This document shows, one piece after another, positions 3,932 through 42,855 of a stretch of 64,000 bases of DNA; the stretch's first letter is position 1, and each line of letters starts with the position of its first letter. The stretch spans positions 1,336,001 to 1,400,000 of the forward strand of contig NZ_CP024869.1 of assembly GCF_003052165.1 (NCBI RefSeq), in the 5' to 3' direction. The position numbers and the translations under genes are program-made. The stretch is from Dietzia sp. JS16-p6b (GTDB lineage Bacteria > Actinomycetota > Actinomycetes > Mycobacteriales > Mycobacteriaceae). The notes beneath the pieces are model-generated. The model searched no databases, was not told where the DNA came from, and saw only the letters and a list, made by a program, of their open reading frames with translations.

Positions 3932-4589
3932 GGATGATCCCCTCCAGTTCGTTCGTGTCCGCCGGGGACCAGCGGGCATCGGCCCACTCCTCGGGGCTGC
4001 CGTAGCCCCAGCGCACTATCGCCGTGGGGATGCCGTAACGGGCGGCCCCGGCCACGTCGTGCTCGCGGTCGCCGATCATGAGGACGCTCTCGGTACCCCC
4101 GTCGGCCTCGGGGACCGGGTCCAACCCGACGGCGGCCAGCGAATGCGCGATCACGTCGGCCTTCGCCGACCGGCCGACACGCAGGTCCGCCCCGCCGATG
4201 AACTCGAAGGGGTCGTCGAGTCCGAAGTGCTCCAGGATCCGCCGCGCGGCCCGCTGGTCCTTGCTCGTCGCCACGGCCATCCGGAAGCCCTGGCCGGCCA
4301 GGCTGCTCAGCAACTCGTCCATTCCCTCGTAGACGGCGTTCTCGAGCCACCCCACCTCGCCGTAGCGCTCGCGGTACGCGCCCATCGCCCGCTGCAGATC
4401 CGCGCCCTCGAGTCCCAGCGAGGCGAGGGTGTCGGGCATCGGCGGGCCCGCGATGGACCGGATGTCACGGGAGTCGTCCCACCGGGCGCCGACGGTGTCG
4501 AGCGCGTGACGGAGGGATTTGGCGATACCGTCCAGGGAGTCGGTGATGGTTCCGTCGAGATCGACGAGCAGGACAGGGCGATCGGGCAT
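3921..4589 (-). CDS. HAD-superfamily hydrolase, PtkA orthologue by position
   Basis: HAD protein of 222 aa with the nucleophile motif DLDGT (Asp10, Asp12), a helical cap, motif II VATSK, and motif IV GDREHD. By sequence it resembles phosphoglycolate or pyrophosphate phosphatases of the Gph/PpaX type. Its position directly before ptpA matches Rv2232 (PtkA), a HAD protein reported to act as a tyrosine kinase. The start at 4589 has GGGAGG about 8 nt upstream. Enzyme activity cannot be settled from sequence: the fold is certain, the PtkA role is inferred from context. Confidence 0.85.
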   Translation of the reverse strand: MPDRPVLLVDLDGTITDSLDGIAKSLRHALDTVGARWDDSRDIRSIAGPPMPDTLASLGLEGADLQRAMGAYRERYGEVGWLENAVYEGMDELLSSLAGQGFRMAVATSKDQRAARRILEHFGLDDPFEFIGGADLRVGRSAKADVIAHSLAAVGLDPVPEADGGTESVLMIGDREHDVAGAARYGIPTAIVRWGYGSPEEWADARWSPADTNELEGIIHAW

Positions 4590-4654
4590 GTGGTCATCCT
4601 CCCAGACCCGGGTCGCCACGCGTCCCGCCCCGTCGCCGCCGCCGGCCCGCCGCC

Positions 4655-4660
4655 TAGGCT
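4655..4660 (+). promoter_or_regulatory. -10 element of cobC, leaderless
   Basis: TAGGCT exactly 7 nt before the ATG at 4668; no ribosome-binding site lies between. Confidence 0.6.
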
Positions 4661-4667
4661 GCCGTGC

Positions 4668-5816
4668 ATGAGCGCCGCGCCCGGAACCCCGACCGGACCC
4701 GAGCACGGACGTGGACCCGTACCGCAGCCCGGCCCCCAGCCCCGCCATCTGCCGGAGGGCCCGTCCTGGGAGGCGCTGCGTCACCACGGCGATGCCGAAC
4801 TGGTCCCGGGGGGCGTCGATTTCGCCGTCAACGTGCGAGGAAACGGCCCGCCAGCGTGGCTGCGGGACCGGCTGGCCGACCGACTCGGCGACCTGGGCGG
4901 GTACCCCACACCCGACGACGTGGAGGCGGCCGTCGCCTCGGTCGCCGCCCGTCACGGGGTGGGTCGTGAGGCCGTCCTGTTGTTGGGTGGCGCCTCGGAG
5001 GGGTTCCATCTGCTCGCCGACCACGCCGCCCGCAGGGGCCTGCGCGCCGCGGTGGTCCACCCGTCGTTCACCGAGCCCGAGGTCGAGCTCCGGCGGGCCG
5101 GCGTGCAGGTCCACAGGGTGATCCTGTCGCCGCCGTACGGCCTCGACCCGGCTCTCGTGCCCGAGGAGGCCGACCTCGTCGTCGTCGGCAATCCCACCAA
5201 CCCCACCTCGGTCCTCCACGCCAGCGCGACCGTCGCGGCGCTGTGCCGCCCGGGCCGGGTGACCGTGGTGGACGAGGCGTTCTGCGACATGGTGTCCGAC
5301 GAGGCCGGGCACACCCTGGCCGGCGCCCGCCTCCCCGGGCTGGTGGTGCTGCGGTCGCTGACCAAGACGTGGGCGCTCGCCGGGCTGCGCATTGGTTACG
5401 CCGTGGGCGACCTGGGGGTGCTGGCCGACCTCGCCGCGGACCGGCCCCACTGGCCCCTCGGAACGCTGCAGCTCGAGGCGATCCGGGCGTGCCTGGGTCC
5501 GGAGGCGGAGGGCGAGCTGGAGGCCGCGCGCGGGCAGGTGATGGCCGAACGTCGGGCGATGGTGGCCGCTCTCGAGTCCGCAGGGATCAGGGTCGTGGTG
5601 CCCCCCGAGGCCCCGTTCGTCCTGGTACGCACCCCGGCCCGCGCGGATCCCGCCGCGTTCCGCGCGGGCCTGGCGCGCCGGGGGATCGCGACCCGCCGCG
5701 GTGACACGTTCCCCGGACTCGACGCCACCCACCTGCGCCTGGCCGTCCGCGACGGCAGGATGGTGGACGCACTCGTCCGCGCCTGGCGGGCGGAGCGGGA
5801 AGGGGATCGACGATGA
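4668..5816 (+). CDS. cobC: PLP aminotransferase, CobC / HisC-like
   Basis: Fold-type I PLP enzyme of 382 aa, related to histidinol-phosphate aminotransferase and to L-threonine-O-3-phosphate decarboxylase CobD/CobC, which makes the aminopropanol phosphate of cobalamin. Visible are GNPTNPT (Asn175), VDEAF (Asp202) and the Schiff-base lysine Lys233 in SLTKTWALAGLRIG. It is the positional equivalent of Rv2231c. A longer in-frame upstream extension exists but runs through the divergent HAD gene; the -10 hexamer fixes the start at 4668. The stop overlaps the next start as ATGA. A decarboxylase role fits the cob genes nearby but a transaminase role is not excluded. Confidence 0.83.
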   Translation: MSAAPGTPTGPEHGRGPVPQPGPQPRHLPEGPSWEALRHHGDAELVPGGVDFAVNVRGNGPPAWLRDRLADRLGDLGGYPTPDDVEAAVASVAARHGVGREAVLLLGGASEGFHLLADHAARRGLRAAVVHPSFTEPEVELRRAGVQVHRVILSPPYGLDPALVPEEADLVVVGNPTNPTSVLHASATVAALCRPGRVTVVDEAFCDMVSDEAGHTLAGARLPGLVVLRSLTKTWALAGLRIGYAVGDLGVLADLAADRPHWPLGTLQLEAIRACLGPEAEGELEAARGQVMAERRAMVAALESAGIRVVVPPEAPFVLVRTPARADPAAFRAGLARRGIATRRGDTFPGLDATHLRLAVRDGRMVDALVRAWRAEREGDRR

Positions 5817-23265: not shown

Positions 23266-23296
23266 AAACGCCCCGGCCACGGGGGCCGGGGCGTTT
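23266..23296. terminator. Rho-independent terminator hairpin
   Basis: Perfect 13-bp stem AAACGCCCCGGCC / GGCCGGGGCGTTT around loop ACGGG, with T residues on both sides. On the minus strand it would end the SCO6745-like transcript. Confidence 0.75.
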
Positions 23297-23385
23297 GAAC
23301 GATTTCCGACCTGCTGGATCGGACGCGAGAAGAGAATGTGCTTCACATGCCCTGAAGTGCGAAAACGCCGCGGTGGCGTCGACTG

Positions 23386-24249
23386 TCACGGGCGGGGAAC
23401 CCCGATGGGGTTGGAGGCGGGGACCGCCCCGCGGTCGATAAGCGCCCGGGCCAGTGAGGTCAGGACGTGGATGGTTCCGCCGGGGGTGTCCGACAGCAGC
23501 AGCGACGATGCGGCGAGCTGGTCGGTGAGGTCTTCGATCCGGTCGCGCAGCGCGGTGCCTCGAGGGGTGAGCGTCTGCTCGTCCGAGAGGATTCCGCGGT
23601 CGAGGAGCGCGCGACGCGCCGACGCCCACTGCGCGTCGGTCCAGCCGCGGTTCTCCTGGATGATGCGTCGGCTCACCTGCCCCGTGGCGATGTGGGTCAT
23701 GGCCGCCTCCAGGCCCGTGAAGCCGGTGGCGGTGGCGGCGATGACGTGGCCGTCGCCGCGGTGCTCGCGCAGGACCGTGGTGGCCAACCAGAGGCGCTGC
23801 AGCACCGACGTCGGTCGCGGGACCGAGTACCAGGCGCTCGCGAGGGCCCGCCCGTCGAAGGACAGGGTGTCGATGACGCGTTCGAGGTCGTCCGTCACGC
23901 GGCGCAACTCGTCGCGTGAACCGGCGTCGGCGTGCTCGGCCAGAACCCACTCAGCGGCATCGAGCCGTGCCTCGATGGCGGCCTCGGGAGTGATCCGGGT
24001 CCAGATCTTGGGGACCGCGCGGGCGACCATCGCGGGTGAGAAGCCGTAGAACAGGGAGGTCACGACCTGGGGTGGCGTCGGCCCAAGAGGGGCGGCGCGA
24101 CCCGCGAAGTAGCCGTTCCACCACCCTGTCAACCCGGTTTCGCTCATGGTCGAAGCGAACTGCGGGTGGAAGTAGCAGATCGCGTGGATGGGCTCGTAGG
24201 CACGCCACAGTCGTCGTTCGCCGCTGTGGACCCTGTCGGTGGGGGACAT
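23386..24249 (-). CDS. SCO6745/SalK-like helical protein
   Basis: A 287-aa protein of the actinobacterial SCO6745 family (MarR-like/SalK). It shows the opening RLWRAYEPIHAICYF, the GWWNGYFAGRAAPLGPTPP block, and a C-terminal winged-helix-like half (LLDRGILSDEQTLTPRG). Members are often annotated as MarR-like regulators or left hypothetical; SalK belongs to a salinomycin cluster. No DNA-binding proof. The ATG at 24249 fits the family N-terminus; a longer frame upstream runs through the divergent aminotransferase gene. It faces the BCAT cassette across a 175-bp shared promoter region. Confidence 0.72.
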   Translation of the reverse strand: MSPTDRVHSGERRLWRAYEPIHAICYFHPQFASTMSETGLTGWWNGYFAGRAAPLGPTPPQVVTSLFYGFSPAMVARAVPKIWTRITPEAAIEARLDAAEWVLAEHADAGSRDELRRVTDDLERVIDTLSFDGRALASAWYSVPRPTSVLQRLWLATTVLREHRGDGHVIAATATGFTGLEAAMTHIATGQVSRRIIQENRGWTDAQWASARRALLDRGILSDEQTLTPRGTALRDRIEDLTDQLAASSLLLSDTPGGTIHVLTSLARALIDRGAVPASNPIGVPRP

Positions 24250-24331
24250 GACGCCATGCTGTCCTGATCGCGGGGCATCTGGCCACTGCCACCTCGCACC
24301 GGGTGGACTCCCCGGGTGGTCGTGAGGAGCG

Positions 24332-24343
24332 TGGACCAGTCCA
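24332..24343. promoter_or_regulatory. Palindrome TGGAC-CA-GTCCA, candidate MocR operator
   Basis: Inverted repeat with 5-bp arms in the intergenic region before the aminotransferase cassette; another TGGAC occurs at 24304-24308 in direct orientation. The MocR gene at 26988 is the natural candidate to bind here. Confidence 0.35.
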
Positions 24344-24424
24344 GCCGTGCCGGATTGGATGGCGACGCCGTACGGCGCACGGGGTTCACTCAAGAGCGTC
24401 GGGTCGTGAAGAAGGAGCTCGCTG

Positions 24425-25558
24425 ATGACCACAGACGCCCCGCTGGGCCACGCCGAGAGAGCCGGTGACGCCTTCATCGTCCGACGGAGCACCAGACCAC
24501 CGGGGGACGGGCGACTCTCAGGCGCCCTGGGCGATCCGGAGTTCGGGCACCACTTCACCGACCACATGGTCCTCATCGACTACTCCGAGACAGGCGGATG
24601 GCGCGACGCGCGCGTGGTGCCGTTCGGTCCGCTGTCGCTGAATCCGGGATCAGCGGTCCTCCACTATGGCCAGGGGGTTTTCGAAGGGCTCAAGGTGTAT
24701 CGCCACGCCGACGGTCACCTGCGGGCGTTCCGCGCACATGCTCATGCGCGCCGATTCGCGTCGTCGGCAGCTCGCCTCGCGATGCCGGAACTACCGGAGA
24801 GCCTGTTCATCGAGTCGATTCGGCAACTGGCGCGAGCCGACGCCGGATGGGTCCCGCACCAGAGGGGCGCGAGCTTGTATGTGCGACCGTTCCTCATCGC
24901 CACCGAGGCCTTTCTCGGAGTTCGTCCGTCGCGCGAGGCGACGTACGGAGTGATCGCCTCCCCGGCCGGTCCCTACTTCGCCGACGCGGACAACGGCATC
25001 AGGTTGTGGCTGTCGCGTGACTACTCACGGGCCGGACCCAGCGGAACGGGAGAGGCCAAGTGCGGCGGCAACTACGCGGCATCACTGCCCGCGCTGCACC
25101 AGGCGCGGGCCAACGGATGCGCTCAGGTTCTCTTCACCGATGCGAGCACCCGGACGTGGGTTGAGGAAGCCGGTAACATGAACATCTTCTTCGTCTTTGC
25201 CGATCGGACACTTGTGACGCCTCCTCTGAGCGGAGCGATTCTCGCGGGTGTGACCCGCGACAGTGTCCTGTGCCTCGCGCGGGATATGGGATACCGCGCG
25301 ATCGAGCGGCCGATCAGCGTAGAGGAATGGCGCGCCGCCGCCGCCAGTGGTGAACTGAGAGAGGTCTTCGCCGTCGGCACCGCCGCGGTCATCACTCCCG
25401 TCGCCGGGCTGGTCGGCGAGGATCTGCTGATCGAGACCCCTCCTCCTGGCTCCCGGTCTGTCGCATCACTCATGCGTGCTGAGCTGTCGTCGCTCCACCA
25501 CGGCGATCGACACGACCGCCACGAGTGGATGTCCGACCTCGGGCGGGCCGACTCATGA
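24425..25558 (+). CDS. Branched-chain-type PLP aminotransferase (IlvE paralogue)
   Basis: Fold-type IV aminotransferase of 377 aa. The FEGLK block (residues 86-90), YVRPFL (152-157), Schiff-base Lys212 (GTGEAKCGGNYAAS), the EEAGNMNIFF and GTAAVITPV motifs are intact. It is homologous to, but clearly distinct from, the housekeeping IlvE at 41764. AAGGAG lies 7 nt before the ATG. It is the first gene of a four-gene unit with a CoA-transferase, a MocR regulator and a thioesterase. This points to a dedicated amino-acid degradation or conversion path instead of bulk Val/Leu/Ile synthesis. Substrate unknown. Confidence 0.88.
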   Translation: MTTDAPLGHAERAGDAFIVRRSTRPPGDGRLSGALGDPEFGHHFTDHMVLIDYSETGGWRDARVVPFGPLSLNPGSAVLHYGQGVFEGLKVYRHADGHLRAFRAHAHARRFASSAARLAMPELPESLFIESIRQLARADAGWVPHQRGASLYVRPFLIATEAFLGVRPSREATYGVIASPAGPYFADADNGIRLWLSRDYSRAGPSGTGEAKCGGNYAASLPALHQARANGCAQVLFTDASTRTWVEEAGNMNIFFVFADRTLVTPPLSGAILAGVTRDSVLCLARDMGYRAIERPISVEEWRAAAASGELREVFAVGTAAVITPVAGLVGEDLLIETPPPGSRSVASLMRAELSSLHHGDRHDRHEWMSDLGRADS

Positions 25559-26991
25559 CGGTGGGTCGTTTCGCGGAACGGGCGTGGAACGATCTCGGTG
25601 CGTCCGCAGGGGACCCGGGGGACATCGGGTGCGAGAACCCACCGGTGAGGCTTGATTCCCGGCTCGATGTCGCCGAGCTGGTCACCGACAGCATCGGCAT
25701 GGCTTCTGCGGCGATCGAACAGGTCGCTGCCATGCGGGGTCGGCGAGAGCCACGTCCGCTGCGTCTTCGGGGCGATTTCATCACCACGTCGGTGACCAGC
25801 GAGAGGCACTTCCGACTCGACGACCAGCTCCCGCGGGCGTGGGCACCGTTGTCCGGGTTCTGGCCGGCCCGCGACGGCTGGGTTCGCACACATGCGAACT
25901 ATCCACACCATGAACAGCGGCTGCGCCTCCTGCTCGGGCTCGATGACGCAGCCGGCGTCGAGACGTTCGCAGCGGCCGTCGCCGAACGCAGTGCTGTCGA
26001 ACTCGAGGACATCGCGGCCGAGAAGGGCGCGATTGTGGTTGCGGTCCGTGATCGTCAGGCGTGGGCGCGTCATCCGCACGCGGCCGCCGTGGCCGATACG
26101 CCGCTGATCCGTCGTGAGACAGTGGGAGCGGCCCGAGCGCGGCGCTGGCCCGGCGGGTGCTCGCTGCCCTTGTCGGGGTTGCGGGTTCTCGACATGACCC
26201 GGGTGATCGCCGGGCCCGTGGCCACCCGCGATCTCGCCTATGCAGGTGCCGACGTGCTCCGAGTCGACTCACCGCGTCTTCCCGAGATCGACTGGCAACA
26301 CCTCGACACGGGCCAGGGCAAACGTTCGACCACCCTCGACCTGGCGTCGCGGGTCGATCGGCGGGTGCTCACCGACCTGCTCGCGACCGCTGAAGTGGTG
26401 GTCACCGGTTACCGCCCGGGCGCGTTGGACCGCTATGGGCTGTCTCCCGATCAACTCGCCGAGGACTACCCGGGCCTGGTGATCGGTTCGGTCAGCGCGT
26501 GGGGACGCGAGGGGCCGTGGCGTTCCCGGCGCGGGTTTGACAGCATCGTCCAGGCCGCGACCGGCATCGCGATGGTCGAGAGCCCCGATGGGGCACGCCC
26601 GGGAGCGTTACCGGCGCAGGCCCTCGACCACAGCGCGGGGCACTTCCTCGCCGCCGCGATTGCCCGAAGTCTTGTCGACCAGGCTTCCGACGGCGCGACA
26701 GTGCACGTCTCGGTGTCGCTCTGCCGGCTGGCCCACGAGCTGCTCGAGACCACCGGGAACACCGTCCCCGGGCCACGTGACGCCGGTGCTGCGGAACCGG
26801 TGGCGCCGCCGACCACCCAGACCGTGACCTCCGATGCGGGGAGGGTGACCTTCGCTGCGCCCGCGATCAGTGTCCCGGACGCCCCGGGGCGATACCCCGC
26901 GGCCGCCGGCCGGTGGGGCGGCGACGCTGCAGCCTGGGCCAGCCGGCCATCCCAGCGGGGTGCTCGGATGGATGGCGGTCGAGCCCGATGA
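25555..26991 (+). CDS. Class III CoA-transferase (CaiB/BaiF family)
   Basis: A 478-aa CoA-transferase. The typical family III fold starts near residue 203 (LPLSGLRVLDMTRVIAGPVATRDLAYAGADVLRVDSP) with the later VTGYRPGAL, SAWGREGPW and probable catalytic Asp358 (ALDHSAG). The first about 200 residues resemble the C-terminal half of another CoA-transferase unit, giving the permuted or two-part layout seen in some mycobacterial members. It should move CoA between carboxylic acids, plausibly activating the 2-oxo or 2-hydroxy acid made by the aminotransferase. The start overlaps the aminotransferase stop as ATGA; the stop overlaps the MocR start likewise. Confidence 0.83.
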   Translation: MTVGRFAERAWNDLGASAGDPGDIGCENPPVRLDSRLDVAELVTDSIGMASAAIEQVAAMRGRREPRPLRLRGDFITTSVTSERHFRLDDQLPRAWAPLSGFWPARDGWVRTHANYPHHEQRLRLLLGLDDAAGVETFAAAVAERSAVELEDIAAEKGAIVVAVRDRQAWARHPHAAAVADTPLIRRETVGAARARRWPGGCSLPLSGLRVLDMTRVIAGPVATRDLAYAGADVLRVDSPRLPEIDWQHLDTGQGKRSTTLDLASRVDRRVLTDLLATAEVVVTGYRPGALDRYGLSPDQLAEDYPGLVIGSVSAWGREGPWRSRRGFDSIVQAATGIAMVESPDGARPGALPAQALDHSAGHFLAAAIARSLVDQASDGATVHVSVSLCRLAHELLETTGNTVPGPRDAGAAEPVAPPTTQTVTSDAGRVTFAAPAISVPDAPGRYPAAAGRWGGDAAAWASRPSQRGARMDGGRAR

Positions 26992-28454
26992 CGTCGACAC
27001 CCCGTCGCCGGCAGGCGACGAGACGACCGCTGGCCCGCTCCCGCATCGGCGCCAGACAACTCGCGACGCTACTGGGTGAGTGGGACTCTGCCGAACCGGT
27101 CTACGCGGCCCTCAGTGACCGAATCACATTGCTGCTGAGCGACGGTCGACTCGCCACTCACACGCGGCTGCCCGCCGAGCGTGAACTGGCCGAGGAGCTG
27201 GGCCGCAGTCGCACCACGATCGTCGCGGCCTACCGGGCGCTGCGCGAGAGCGGACACCTCATCAGCATGAGAGGGTCGGGAAGTGTCCTGGTCCTTCCGC
27301 GGGCGCTCCCCGGCCGGAGCGACCTCGAGGTCGACTTCGCACGATCAGTCCCGGCCCCGGTGGCCGGCCTCGACGAGATCGTCCGCGCGGTGGCCGACCG
27401 GGCGCCCACCGTGCTCGAGCACTCGGGGTTCGACCTCGTCGGCCAGCAACGCCTGCGTGAATCGATCGCCGCCCGCTACACCGAGCACGGTGCCCAGACC
27501 GGACCCGATCAGATTCTGATCACCCTCGGCGCCCAGAACGCCATCGCTCTGACCGCGAGGACAGTGCTACGGCACGGCGATCGAGTCCTGATCGAGACGC
27601 CGACGTACCCGCACGCCTACGAGGCGCTCCGCAACGCCGGCGGGCGGCTCGTCAGTACCCCGGTGACGACGACCGGGTGGGACATCGACCACCTGGTCAG
27701 CGCCATCGAGCGAGTGCGTCCCGAACTGATCTACCTCATCCCCGACTTCCACAATCCCACCGGCTCGTCGATGAACGCCGAACAACGCGAGCGGGTCATC
27801 GCGAGTGCCCGTCGCAACGGTGCCCTGGTGTTGATCGACGAGACAACGGCCGACCTCGACATCGACCGACCCGACAGCCCGCCGACGTTCCCCTCGCTGA
27901 CCACCACGCGAGACGCCGACACGCTGGTGAGCGTGGGGTCGCTCAGCAAGACCATCTGGGGTGGCCTGCGAGTCGGCTGGATTCGCGCGGAACCCGCCAT
28001 GATCAGCCGCCTGATCACCCGGAGGCCTGCGGACGACCTCGGCACACCCGTCATCGAACAGCTCATCGCCACCCGGGTACTGGAATGCTACGACCTGCTC
28101 CTGACCCGCCGCGCTGATCAACTGAGAGCTGGCCGGGACCTCCTGGTCTCACTCCTGCGAACCAGTCTCCCCGACTGGCGCATCCCCGACGTGCATGGCG
28201 GACTGGCGTTGTGGGTCGAGCTCGGCGCACCCCTCAGCTCAGCGCTGGCATCTGCCTGCCAACCCCGAGGAGTCCGCATCACCGCCGGGCCTCGGTTCGG
28301 AATCGATGGCGCGCGCGAGCGATTCATCCGTGTGCCCTTCACCGCGGGGGCCGACCACCTAGAACGCGGAGTCTGCATTCTTCGCGAGGCGTGGGAATCC
28401 CTTGACCCTGTGCCCACACCGGGGACGCAGACCCCGCCGCACCCGATGCTCTAG
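26988..28454 (+). CDS. MocR-type GntR/aminotransferase transcription regulator
   Basis: A 488-aa regulator. Residues about 38-100 are a GntR winged helix (VYAALSDRITLLLSDG, RLPAERELAEELGRSRTTI), followed by a fold-type I aminotransferase domain with HNPTG (Asn256), Asp284 (LIDET) and Schiff-base Lys321 (SLSKTIWGG). MocR proteins bind PLP or an external aldimine and control nearby genes for amino acid, PLP or taurine metabolism. Embedded between the CoA-transferase (ATGA overlap) and the thioesterase (19-bp gap), it is probably autoregulatory. Ligand unknown; an amino acid handled by the adjacent aminotransferase is the simplest guess. Confidence 0.9.
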   Translation: MTSTPRRRQATRRPLARSRIGARQLATLLGEWDSAEPVYAALSDRITLLLSDGRLATHTRLPAERELAEELGRSRTTIVAAYRALRESGHLISMRGSGSVLVLPRALPGRSDLEVDFARSVPAPVAGLDEIVRAVADRAPTVLEHSGFDLVGQQRLRESIAARYTEHGAQTGPDQILITLGAQNAIALTARTVLRHGDRVLIETPTYPHAYEALRNAGGRLVSTPVTTTGWDIDHLVSAIERVRPELIYLIPDFHNPTGSSMNAEQRERVIASARRNGALVLIDETTADLDIDRPDSPPTFPSLTTTRDADTLVSVGSLSKTIWGGLRVGWIRAEPAMISRLITRRPADDLGTPVIEQLIATRVLECYDLLLTRRADQLRAGRDLLVSLLRTSLPDWRIPDVHGGLALWVELGAPLSSALASACQPRGVRITAGPRFGIDGARERFIRVPFTAGADHLERGVCILREAWESLDPVPTPGTQTPPHPML

Positions 28455-28473
28455 CGCTGACCGAAGGAAGACA

Positions 28474-28929
28474 GTGGACGCCTCCGAGAACATCCCCGCC
28501 GAACTCGCCGACCACGTCGCGGCCAGCTTTTCGCGTCAGGGACTGATGCGCCATCTCGGCGCCCGTATCACCGAGCTGCGCCGCGGATTCTGCCAGCTCT
28601 GCGCACCCTTCAGTCCCGACCTCACACAGCAGCACGGTTACTTTCACGCCGGAGTCACCAGCTCGCTCTCCGACACCGCGGGCGGCTATGCGGGCCTGTC
28701 GACGTACACACGCGCGGATTCAATCCTGACAGTTGATTTCTCAGTGAATCTGCTGGCGCCGGCCGTGGGCGAGTCCCTCATCGCCGAAGCCACGGTGATC
28801 AGAAGTGGCCGCACTCTCACGGTGTGCCGACTGGAGGCCTTCACCCTCGAGGCCGGCAGGCGTGTTCATGTCGCGACCGGCCGCCAGACGCTGATCCGTC
28901 TCGCCGACACCCCGGATCACCAGGTGTGA
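28474..28929 (+). CDS. PaaI-type hotdog thioesterase
   Basis: Acyl-CoA thioesterase of 151 aa with the PaaI/4HBT_3 hotdog pattern: HGYFHAGVTSSLSDTAGGYAG with HG at residues 54-55 and Asp68 as likely general base, then VDFSVNLLAP on the central strand. Start GTG at 28474 follows AAGGAAG. As the last gene of the cassette it could release the product of the CoA-ester pathway or salvage CoA from dead-end esters. Substrate not readable. Confidence 0.85.
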   Translation: MDASENIPAELADHVAASFSRQGLMRHLGARITELRRGFCQLCAPFSPDLTQQHGYFHAGVTSSLSDTAGGYAGLSTYTRADSILTVDFSVNLLAPAVGESLIAEATVIRSGRTLTVCRLEAFTLEAGRRVHVATGRQTLIRLADTPDHQV

Positions 28930-28940
28930 ACGACGAACGG

Positions 28941-29006
28941 CGGCTGATGCCGGAAGACGGTGGACACCGTCTCCGGCTGATGCCGGAAGACGGTGGACAC
29001 CGTCTC
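28941..29006. repeat. Tandem 33-bp repeat with hairpins, likely terminator
   Basis: Two identical 33-bp units (28941-28973 and 28974-29006). Each holds a perfect hairpin GACGGTG-GA-CACCGTC. The pair is framed by GGCGGCTGA (from about 28940) and TCAGCCGCC (about 29013-29021). It lies between the convergent thioesterase and glnA1 genes and probably ends both transcripts. Confidence 0.75.
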
Positions 29007-29059
29007 CGCAGCTCAGCCGCCGCTTCGGTGATCAGAGATCGTGGGTGGACACCCTCGGA

Positions 29060-30493
29060 TCAGCAGTCGTAGTAGAGCTCGAACTCGTGCGGGTGCGGGC
29101 GGAGGTTGACCGGGGCGATCTCCTTCTCACGCTTGTACGTGATCCAGTTCTCGATGAGGTCCTCGGTGAACACACCGCCCTCGGTGAGGTACTCGTGATC
29201 CTGCTCGAGACGGTCGATGACCGCGGGCAGCGAGGTCGGCGCCTGGGGGATGTCGGCGGCCTCCTCCGGCGGGAGCTCGTAGAGATCCTTGTCCACCGGC
29301 GCCATCGGCTCGATCTTGTTCTTGACCCCGTCGATACCGGCCATCATCATGGCGGCGAACGCGAAGTACGGGTTGCCGGAGGAGTCGGGGCAGCGGAACT
29401 CGATGCGCTTGGCCTTGGGGTTGTTGCCCGTGATCGGGATGCGCACGCAGGCGGACCGGTTGCGCTGCGAGTACACGAGGTTGATCGGCGCCTCGTAACC
29501 CGGCACCAGGCGGTGATACGAGTTGATCGTGGGGTTGGTGAACGCCAGCAGCGACGGAGCGTGGTGCAGGATGCCACCGATGTAGTAGCGGGCGATATCG
29601 GACAGGCCGGCGTACCCGGACTCGTCGTGGAACAGCGGCTTGCCGTCCTTCCACAGCGACTGGTGGGCGTGCATTCCCGAGCCGTTGTCACCGAAGAGCG
29701 GCTTCGGCATGAAGGTGGCGGACTTACCGTTCTTCCACGCGGTGTTCTTGACGATGTACTTGAAGAGCTGGACGTCGTCGGCGGCGCGGAGCAGGGTGTT
29801 GAACTTGTAGTTGATCTCCTGCTGCGCACCGGCCACCTCGTGGTGGAAGCGCTCGAGCTCGAAGCCGGCGTTGGTGAGGTTGGTCGACATCTCGTCGCGG
29901 AGGTCGACGAAGTGGTCGTACGGGGCGACGGGGAAGTACCCGCCCTTCTCGCGGACCTTGTAACCGAGGTTGGGCGACCCGTCGGCCTCCTGGCCGGAGC
30001 CGGTGTTCCAGTTGCCGGCGCTGGAGTCGACCTCGTAGAAGCCGTGGTTGGTGCCCGAGCCGTACCGGACCGAGTCGAAGACGAAGAACTCGGCCTCGGC
30101 GCCGAAGAAGCAGGTGTCCGCGATACCCGTGGAGACCAGGTACTCCTCGGCCTTGCGGGCGACGTTGCGGGGGTCGCGGCTGTAGGCCTCACGGGTGAAC
30201 GGATCGTGGACGAAGCAGCTGATGTTGAGCGTCTTGGCCCTACGGAAGGGGTCGAGCCGCGCCGTGGCGACGTCCGGGAGGAGCATCATGTCCGACTCGT
30301 GGATCGACTGGAAACCCCGGATCGAGGAGCCGTCGAACGCCAGGCCGTCCTCGAACAGGTCCTCGTCGAACGCCGCGGCGGCGATCGTGAAGTGCTGCTC
30401 GTTGCCCGGCAAGTCGGTGAACCGGATGTCGACGTACTCGACGCCCTCGTCCTTGATGAACTTGATGACCTCGTCCGGAGTGGAGAATGCCAC
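29060..30493 (-). CDS. glnA1: Glutamine synthetase type I, adenylylatable
   Basis: The main ammonia-assimilating enzyme (glutamate + NH3 + ATP to glutamine), 477 aa, dodecameric in the cytoplasm. All GSI motifs are present: [69 protein letters not shown]. The [10 protein letters not shown] segment carries the tyrosine modified by GlnE. The GTG start has AGGAG 7 nt upstream. Transcription is probably controlled through the GlnR box at 30583-30609. Confidence 0.98.
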
Positions 30494-41763: not shown

Positions 41764-42855
41764 ATGTCCCAGTTCGACATCCGCCCCTCGGCCAACCCGA
41801 GGACGGCCGCCGAGCGCGAAGCCATCCTCGCGGCTCCCGGCTTCGGCAAGCACTTCACCGACCACATGGTCACCCTTCCGTACTCCGACGGGTCCTGGGG
41901 TACCCCGACGGTCGAGGCCTACGCTCCGCTGTCGATCGATCCCTCCGCCGTGGTCCTGCACTACGCCCAGACGATCTTCGAGGGCCTCAAGGCGTACCGG
42001 CAGGCCGACGACTCCATCGCCTCCTTCCGCCCGGAGCAGAACGCGGCGCGTTTCAACCGGTCCGCGCAGCGTCTGGCCATGCCGACGCTGCCCGAGGAGC
42101 TCTTCATGGAGTCCCTGCGGCAGATCGTGGCGATCGACCGCGACTGGGTCCCCGCCGCCGGCGGGGAGGAGGCGCTCTACCTGCGCCCGTTCATGATCGC
42201 GACGGAGACGGGCCTGGGCGTGCGGCCTGCCGACGAGTACCTCTACTCGGTCATCGCCTCTCCCGCCGGCGCCTACTTCTCGCGTGGAGTGGCCCCCGTG
42301 AGCGTGTGGCTGAGCACCGAATACGTGAGGGCCAGCCCGGGCGGAACCGGTGCGGCGAAGTTCGGGGGGAACTACGCGGCATCGTTGCGGGCGCAGGAGC
42401 AGGCCGCCGGCGAGGGGTGCGACCAGGTGGTGTGGCTGGACGCCATCGAGCGCAGGTACGTCGAGGAGATGGGCGGGATGAACCTGTTCTTCATCCTCGG
42501 CACCGGCGATTCGGCGGAGATCGTCACCCCGGAGCTGTCCGGTTCGCTCTTGCCCGGCGTGACACGCGACAGCCTCATCCGCCTCGCGCGGCACCTCGGT
42601 TATCCCGTCACCGAGCGGAAGGTCTCGGTGGAGGAGTGGGAGACCGGGGTGGCCTCCGGGGAGATCACCGAGGTGTTCGCCTGCGGGACCGCGGCGGTGA
42701 TCACCCCCGTCGGGTCCGTCCGGCACAGCGGGGGCGGCTACACCGTCGGCGACGGCGGCCCCGGTGAGATCACCATGCGTCTGCGTGAGACCCTCACCGG
42801 GATCCAGCGCGGTTCGGTGGACGACACCTTCGGGTGGATGACCACTCTCGCCTGA
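41764..42855 (+). CDS. ilvE: Branched-chain amino-acid aminotransferase
   Basis: Housekeeping BCAT of 363 aa, last step of Val, Leu and Ile synthesis and first of their breakdown. FEGLK (72-76), RPFM, Schiff-base Lys199 ([14 protein letters not shown]), [10 protein letters not shown] and [10 protein letters not shown] are intact. It matches Rv2210c in position after gcvT. The window holds a second, cassette-borne paralogue at 24425-25558; the two share the same core motifs but differ widely elsewhere. Confidence 0.95.

Follow-up and report, generated by a model that had tools for sequence, protein, structure and literature searches.

The window studied here is a stretch of 64,000 nucleotides from Dietzia sp. 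JS16-p6b (contig NZ_CP024869.1, positions 1,336,001 to 1,400,000), and our subject is a group of genes that it carries between glnE and glnA1. A branched-chain-type aminotransferase (BCAT), a class III CoA-transferase, a MocR regulator of the YczR type and a hotdog-fold thioesterase form one operon (Table 1). The TGA of the BCAT gene overlaps the ATG of the CoA-transferase gene at 25555-25558, the CoA-transferase stop codon overlaps the MocR ATG at 26988-26991, and 19 bp separate the MocR stop (28454) from the thioesterase GTG (28474). A preliminary description, made from the letters alone, had placed these four genes, their overlaps and the gap correctly, and the family matches agree with it. 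Its four-gene cassette was too short, however, since a fifth gene was overlooked, which encodes an HTH_67/SCO6745 family protein and accompanies the unit in three mycobacterial loci as well. A sigma-70 promoter scan and a terminator scan gave no matches.

The BCAT exceeded the ilvE_II cut-off (TIGR01123, 361.6 bits against 250.05), also matched Aminotran_4, and has its pyridoxal 5'-phosphate (PLP) lysine, by alignment, in AKCGGNYAAS. The CoA-transferase matched CoA_transf_3 (PF02515) at E 1.9e-50. The regulator scored 561.5 bits with MocR_like_YczR (NF052290, cut-off 487.4) and contains SLSK, which we take to be the PLP-lysine motif. The thioesterase scored 61.7 bits with TIGR00369 (cut-off 36.6) and also matched 4HBT. 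The HTH_67 protein was well above the cut-offs of both PF21863 (292.2 bits against 27) and NF047719 (295.1 against 120). No clear relative by sequence was found for it among PDB entries (best E 0.044), and it is possibly a second regulator.

Table 1. Position in the window of the operon, the divergent gene, the predicted operator and the inserted block.
Feature	Position	Strand	Basis
Inserted block, ends approximate	23297..29056		from conserved terminator-like hairpin by the 22795-23346 gene to glnA1 stop codon
HTH_67/SCO6745 family protein, 287 aa, divergent from operon	23386..24249	-	PF21863, NF047719
Predicted MocR operator GTGGACCAGTCCAGCCGTGCCGGATTGG, HTH_67/BCAT intergenic region	24331..24358	+	pattern comparison
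Branched-chain-type class IV aminotransferase (BCAT), 377 aa, specialised IlvE paralogue	24425..25558	+	Aminotran_4, ilvE_II
Class III (CaiB/BaiF) CoA-transferase, 478 aa, two halves in exchanged order	25555..26991	+	CoA_transf_3
MocR regulator, YczR subfamily, 488 aa	26988..28454	+	GntR + Aminotran_1_2, MocR_like_YczR
Hotdog-fold thioesterase, 151 aa	28474..28929	+	4HBT, TIGR00369

The inserted block in Dietzia

The MocR protein itself was present in two of the 23 Dietzia genomes, the 3.72-Mb source genome and G102 (both E 0). Weak MocR matches occurred in all 23, the best after those two being 1.6e-13. The nearest named record was Dietzia natronolimnaea S-XJ-1, with a MocR 99% identical to that of the window. 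Fourteen Dietzia stretches around glnA1 were compared, 12 of them with the left neighbour readable, and the block was present in only one of the 14, that of G102. At 11 of the 12 readable sites, the left neighbour and glnA1 had zero cassette genes between them; one of these 11 (G088) carried other genes there. No cassette gene was found in the two stretches whose left neighbour lies outside (L132 and L136). In most other Dietzia stretches, homology to the left flank stops by about 23296-23304, and homology to the right flank starts at about 29053-29060.

Composition also sets the operon apart. The four operon genes each had a lower codon-usage score than all 39 resident genes compared (z -3.0 to -4.5). 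Their G+C content at third codon positions (GC3) was 0.77-0.81, again below all 39 residents, whose mean was 0.90. The codon reference was built from those 39 residents themselves, a hand-picked subset of the 51 called, which gives a slight bias toward residents; the GC3 comparison is free of this bias and agrees with the codon-usage result. Both values are consistent with recent acquisition of the operon. The HTH_67 gene has resident-like codon usage (z -0.6), so its history may differ although it shares the insertion, and the block may be a mosaic. Taken from sequence comparison, these data fit horizontal acquisition of a five-gene block, inserted beside glnA1 in two related Dietzia. The preliminary description had the unit in an accessory block between glnE and glnA1. 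The block is accessory, as the MocR distribution and the empty sites indicate, but the whole interval is not, because the genes from glnE to 23296 have counterparts in other Dietzia.

A plasmid origin was considered and rejected: a plasmid collection gave one record for the CoA-transferase (48%) and 13 for MocR (best 42.5%), none of them close. Separately, the G088 stretch carries a different insertion at the same spot between the left neighbour and glnA1 (positions 971-2761 of L228), which includes a gene for a restriction endonuclease of the GmrSD type (PF03235, 9.8e-28). The spot may therefore be an insertion hot spot.

The MocR clade, its neighbours and a predicted operator

Relatives of the MocR protein numbered 409 in a pattern-seeded scan that covered 84,980 genomes, and the best 80 were kept for neighbour comparison; a second MocR survey covered 401 genomes of the family. 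In a tree of 108 MocR sequences, built by a quick method and drawn from the midpoint, the window MocR lies inside a set of 22 rows (SH-like approximate likelihood ratio test 97) that includes the mycobacterial, Actinomadura and Microbacterium relatives cited below and those of L226 (G367) and L227 (G287). None of the 23 distinct clade loci, window MocR included, had YczE within 1.5 kb upstream; this count takes in L045, omits L199, which duplicates L227, and treats L198 and L226 as one locus. Outside the clade, a divergent YczE gene lay within 1.5 kb upstream in 63 of 86 loci.

Parts of the Dietzia unit recur around these regulators. Mycolicibacterium palauense (L046) and Mycobacterium sp. PO1 (L047) have an HTH_67 gene divergent from BCAT-MocR-thioesterase, and Mycobacterium sp. 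MBM (L048) has one divergent from MocR-thioesterase. HTH_67 and the thioesterase are the MocR neighbours kept in all three mycobacterial loci, where the proteins are 61-71% and 68-72% identical, respectively, to those of the window. Actinomadura atramentaria (L058) has BCAT-CaiB-MocR, and Microbacterium yannicii (L057) has a CoA-transferase, 53% identical, about 5 kb from MocR. In L227, MocR is divergent from a beta-hydroxyacid dehydrogenase gene, which is followed by a 51% identical CoA-transferase. Genes like this dehydrogenase adjoin MocR in nine distinct clade loci (eight divergent, one on the same strand) and in none outside the clade. L061 has a confirmed 4HBT thioesterase gene, and L057 and L060 have genes whose starts look similar by eye. 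Around MocR in the Microbacterium loci, gene clustering also showed a recurrent cupin gene; one member of that cluster, in L227, was checked by Pfam. Thioesterase relatives of at most 56% identity (L141-L168) had no BCAT, CoA-transferase, MocR or HTH_67 gene in their 1.5-kb flanks at E<=1e-3.

The complete set is rare. The preliminary description had proposed a cassette of four genes, and exactly these four in this order were seen only in the two Dietzia. Nor are the genes scattered in the close relatives whose loci were read, an arrangement that the description had named as counting against a cassette. We rejected the idea that the cassette is common in the family: MocR matches at E<=1e-90 were found in 195 of the 401 genomes, but proximity to the clade was confined, among the matches listed, to G102, G367 and G287, the other listed MocRs being 41-46% identical.

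The intergenic region between HTH_67 and BCAT holds the operator-like sequence GTGGACCAGTCCAGCCGTGCCGGATTGG, and the three mycobacterial loci have such a site in the same place. The pattern GTGGACYRGTCCA-N6..16-ATTGG occurs once in the 3.72-Mb genome (a control pattern, 0) and in nine of 229 loci, all of which are copies of the Dietzia unit or the three mycobacterial loci. Since the pattern was derived from an alignment of the very units that it matches, weight is placed on its uniqueness and constant place and not on the match. YczR half-sites GTCCACT and ACTGGAC have been described upstream (PMC4944035). Half-sites of the form GTCCA[ACG]T are enriched in the upstream regions of the clade, where 20 of 22 regions hold 29 sites in all (in Markov shuffles, a mean of 1.9 and at most 6), and also outside it, where 34 of 86 regions hold 51 (shuffle mean 6.1, at most 15). 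The upstream region in the window has no exact 7-mer, only two TGGAC cores and one GTCCA core, which lie in the palindrome that it shares with its relatives; L226 likewise has no 7-mer half-site in the stretch used. From these comparisons, the site is a predicted MocR operator to which the protein would bind. Conserved gene order and a recurrent operator-like site before BCAT tie the regulator to the unit, as had been proposed. Elsewhere in the window, the gap between the thioesterase and glnA1 (28942-29007) holds two tandem hairpin-like copies of GGCTGATGCCGGAAGACGGTGGACACCGTCTCC with one TGGAC core each.

Genes of exporter type lie near some relatives. A LysE-type gene follows the thioesterase by 57 bp in L048 and by about 1.5 kb in L046, and AzlC/AzlD genes stand directly before MocR in L050 (by Pfam) and one gene further away in L052-L054 (by gene clustering). 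This placement, together with the retention of HTH_67, MocR and the thioesterase in all three mycobacterial loci, would suit a role in overflow or detoxification. In such a role, the BCAT, the thioesterase and the relatives' exporters would keep an amino acid or an analogue of one from reaching harmful levels, together with the acyl-CoAs derived from it, and the CoA-transferase would be an optional part that recycles CoA and not a catabolic step. We consider this unlikely, since the Dietzia block has no exporter, and AzlCD and LysE are known here as neighbours alone, with NCBIfam scores that reach the cut-off of no named exporter. As a separate observation, the four Pseudoclavibacter loci with AzlC/AzlD near MocR (L050, L052, L053 and L054) also have, by eye, a gene like an Lrp-type regulator.

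The aminotransferase and the CoA-transferase

A second IlvE is encoded in the window at about 41770-42855 and is 50% identical to the BCAT of the operon. In a tree of these enzymes, five MocR-linked BCATs, two of which are the near-identical Dietzia pair, split from 35 others with support of 100/99. All five MocR-linked BCATs depart from the others at four positions where at least 33 of those 35 are identical; the changes include A to V or L in FEGLKAYR and C to V, T or A in ACGTAA. A search of 396 genomes of the phylum found no additional BCAT over 54% identity. The earlier suggestion of a specialised IlvE paralogue is supported by the split, and specialisation of the BCAT and linkage of the regulator to the unit are well supported by sequence. 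The altered positions could also be taken to mean that the BCAT runs toward the amino acid, in a unit whose product would be a non-standard amino acid or an acyl-CoA of an unusual kind. We consider a biosynthetic direction improbable, as no recurrent biosynthetic partner was noticed in the relatives' gene lists, which were mostly judged by eye from first residues.

The CoA-transferase, which the preliminary description called two-part, is a single protein that looks like a circular permutation. Residues 206-421 match positions 1-231 of the PF02515 model, so that the halves appear in a non-canonical order. The Pfam evidence on the N-terminal part comes from three relatives that were scanned separately: their N-terminal parts match PF02515 within 209-326 at E 1e-5 to 3e-3, and one of the three is above the gathering score. 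The best solved match to the catalytic half is the class III CoA-transferase Rv3272 (PDB 5yit), at 99.4 bits over residues 203-393 with 7-210; the position of its Asp is kept, and the two proteins differ in that their halves stand in opposite order. Asp358, the predicted catalytic residue, is invariant in 28 aligned rows and aligns with an Asp of Rv3272 that is present in chain 5yit but altered in chain 5yiy. On the N-terminal side, residues 100-157 align with Rv3272 252-306 at 4.8 bits, and a profile of this part reached only E 0.55 against Rv3272 residues 244-323, though at the expected place. When the halves were restored to canonical order, the match to solved structures was no longer than before. 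Given these last two results, the case for permutation is drawn mainly from Pfam.

This layout is common to the 28 aligned family members and is therefore not special to the cassette. The five MocR-linked CoA-transferases, again with the near-identical Dietzia pair among them, split from 28 others (100/99). None of the 28 loci of relatives in other Mycobacteriaceae (L005-L032) had a BCAT or MocR gene within 1.5 kb. Both enzyme trees have long branches, so placements inside the MocR-linked sets are unsure. In 17 of these 28 loci, a nucleoside hydrolase-like neighbour was seen by eye. A literature search, whose coverage mostly left out subscription journals, found no apparent account of circular permutation in class III CoA-transferases, and the form is now available for study.

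A proposed pathway and its relation to known systems

As a tentative reading, and the one we favour, the block would be a horizontally acquired, self-regulated module that takes an amino acid to a 2-oxo acid and then to an acyl-CoA, with the thioesterase as the release step. We infer the steps and their direction as follows. An amino acid would form an aldimine with the PLP of MocR and act as the switch. MocR, bound at the predicted operator, would control the four genes of the operon and probably also the divergent HTH_67 gene. The BCAT may turn a branched-chain or similar amino acid into its 2-oxo acid, and the permuted CoA-transferase may move CoA to an acid derived from that product. If acyl-CoA builds up, the thioesterase would free the CoA or the acid. 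An aldimine-forming amino acid is the likely signal in view of MocR biology, as in GabR (PMC4944035) and OapR (PMC7057948). The BCAT itself, and the genes of AzlC/AzlD and LysE type that lie close to certain relatives, hint weakly at a branched-chain or related amino acid. The presence of a CoA-transferase and a thioesterase makes an acyl-CoA step likely.

Several results weigh against this pathway. All three mycobacterial loci lack the CoA-transferase, and that of Mycobacterium sp. MBM lacks BCAT as well; the unit is therefore modular, and one linear pathway cannot account for every version of it. L226, in the same MocR subclade, has no BCAT, CoA-transferase, thioesterase or HTH_67 gene within 15 kb. 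The BCAT passes the ordinary ilvE_II cut-off, which makes plain Val/Leu/Ile kinetics possible. The branched-chain hint is weakened by the L227 dehydrogenase, which scored 122 against a cut-off of 291.6 for 3-hydroxyisobutyrate dehydrogenase (tartronate semialdehyde reductase, 160, also below cut-off), and by the other neighbours found around the clade MocR in Jiangella loci. A hint that the signal may be of another kind comes from L073, which encodes a lysine 6-transaminase (3952-5217; 635 bits, cut-off 521) about 3 kb from a clade MocR. Finally, the exact 7-mer half-site does not occur in the window's own upstream region. Apart from these points, the MocR of L226 (7036-8449) shows a possible break between two matched pieces, and the source genome encodes, elsewhere, a 3-hydroxyisobutyrate dehydrogenase above the curated cut-off.

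Such modular content, and an HTH_67 gene whose codon usage is unlike that of the other four, might instead mean that loosely assembled genes share one MocR promoter and no common pathway. That MocR-linked BCATs and CoA-transferases form separate groups, and that gene order recurs in other families, argues for a shared function, and we hold a passenger cassette to be quite unlikely. The proposed module remains our preferred account of the block.

The HTH_67 family gave the most unexpected result, a repeated link with MocR and CoA enzymes. Twenty loci of HTH_67 relatives were read, two of them the Dietzia pair. The five relatives with 45-48% identity (L235-L239) all lie divergently beside a different MocR, which shares 26-27% identity with that of the window; two of these MocRs scored 236.6 and 232.8 bits, below the YczR cut-off of 487.4. 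Enoyl-CoA-hydratase-like genes adjoin loci of this type (two, tested in L255, had strong E-values and fell below each named cut-off; the others were judged by eye). These loci resemble the window in having HTH_67 divergent from a MocR beside CoA enzymes, but their MocR, where scored, falls below the YczR cut-off, and crotonases stand in place of the BCAT and CoA-transferase. No MocR was found within 1.5 kb at three HTH_67 loci of 66-69% identity or at 10 of 40-43%. A bolder idea, which we rate as unlikely, is that a MocR and HTH_67 pair has been used at least twice for amino-acid-derived acyl-CoA modules in actinobacteria, here by way of a permuted CoA-transferase route from the BCAT product that bypasses the branched-chain oxo-acid dehydrogenase. 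As side observations, L255 has a LysE-type exporter nearby, below named cut-offs, and L256 has an acyl-CoA-dehydrogenase-like gene and, by eye, a cupin-like gene. A literature search on the name SCO6745 found no description, and the family gains a recurrent genetic partner here.

MocR regulators are numerous, and ligands are established for few of them, according to two papers on these proteins. A search that mostly left out subscription journals found nothing joining MocR with a CoA-transferase, an aminotransferase and a thioesterase. MocR with a CoA-transferase appeared in what seem to be other systems, and nothing apparently related was found on MocR with a branched-chain amino acid in Actinobacteria or on MocR with Dietzia.

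The regulator can be compared with the YczR-YczE regulon (PMC4944035). The two belong to the same subfamily by NF052290 and have related half-site cores, and the Val-Asp-Glu plus Thr found there is close, by eye, to I-D-E-T in the window MocR. They differ in that YczR has YczE as its partner, whereas metabolic genes stand by this clade. The present clade is a YczR-type group whose neighbours are metabolic genes where a membrane protein would be usual, and an operator-like site recurs with it. This combination allows predictions of ligand and substrate to be checked against each other in one small operon.

Taken with its relatives in other actinobacteria, the block suggests a regulated amino-acid pathway, and the closest known systems are of the MocR/aminotransferase kind. 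One of them includes oapT, a beta-alanine aminotransferase gene. GabR with gabT-gabD (PMC4944035) and OapR with oapTD (PMC7057948) likewise have a MocR adjoining an aminotransferase operon for the amino acid that is sensed. Unlike in those systems, the Dietzia unit has a class IV BCAT-type enzyme, a CoA-transferase and a thioesterase in place of the semialdehyde dehydrogenase, and its YczR-type MocR lies inside the operon, with the HTH_67 gene divergent from it.

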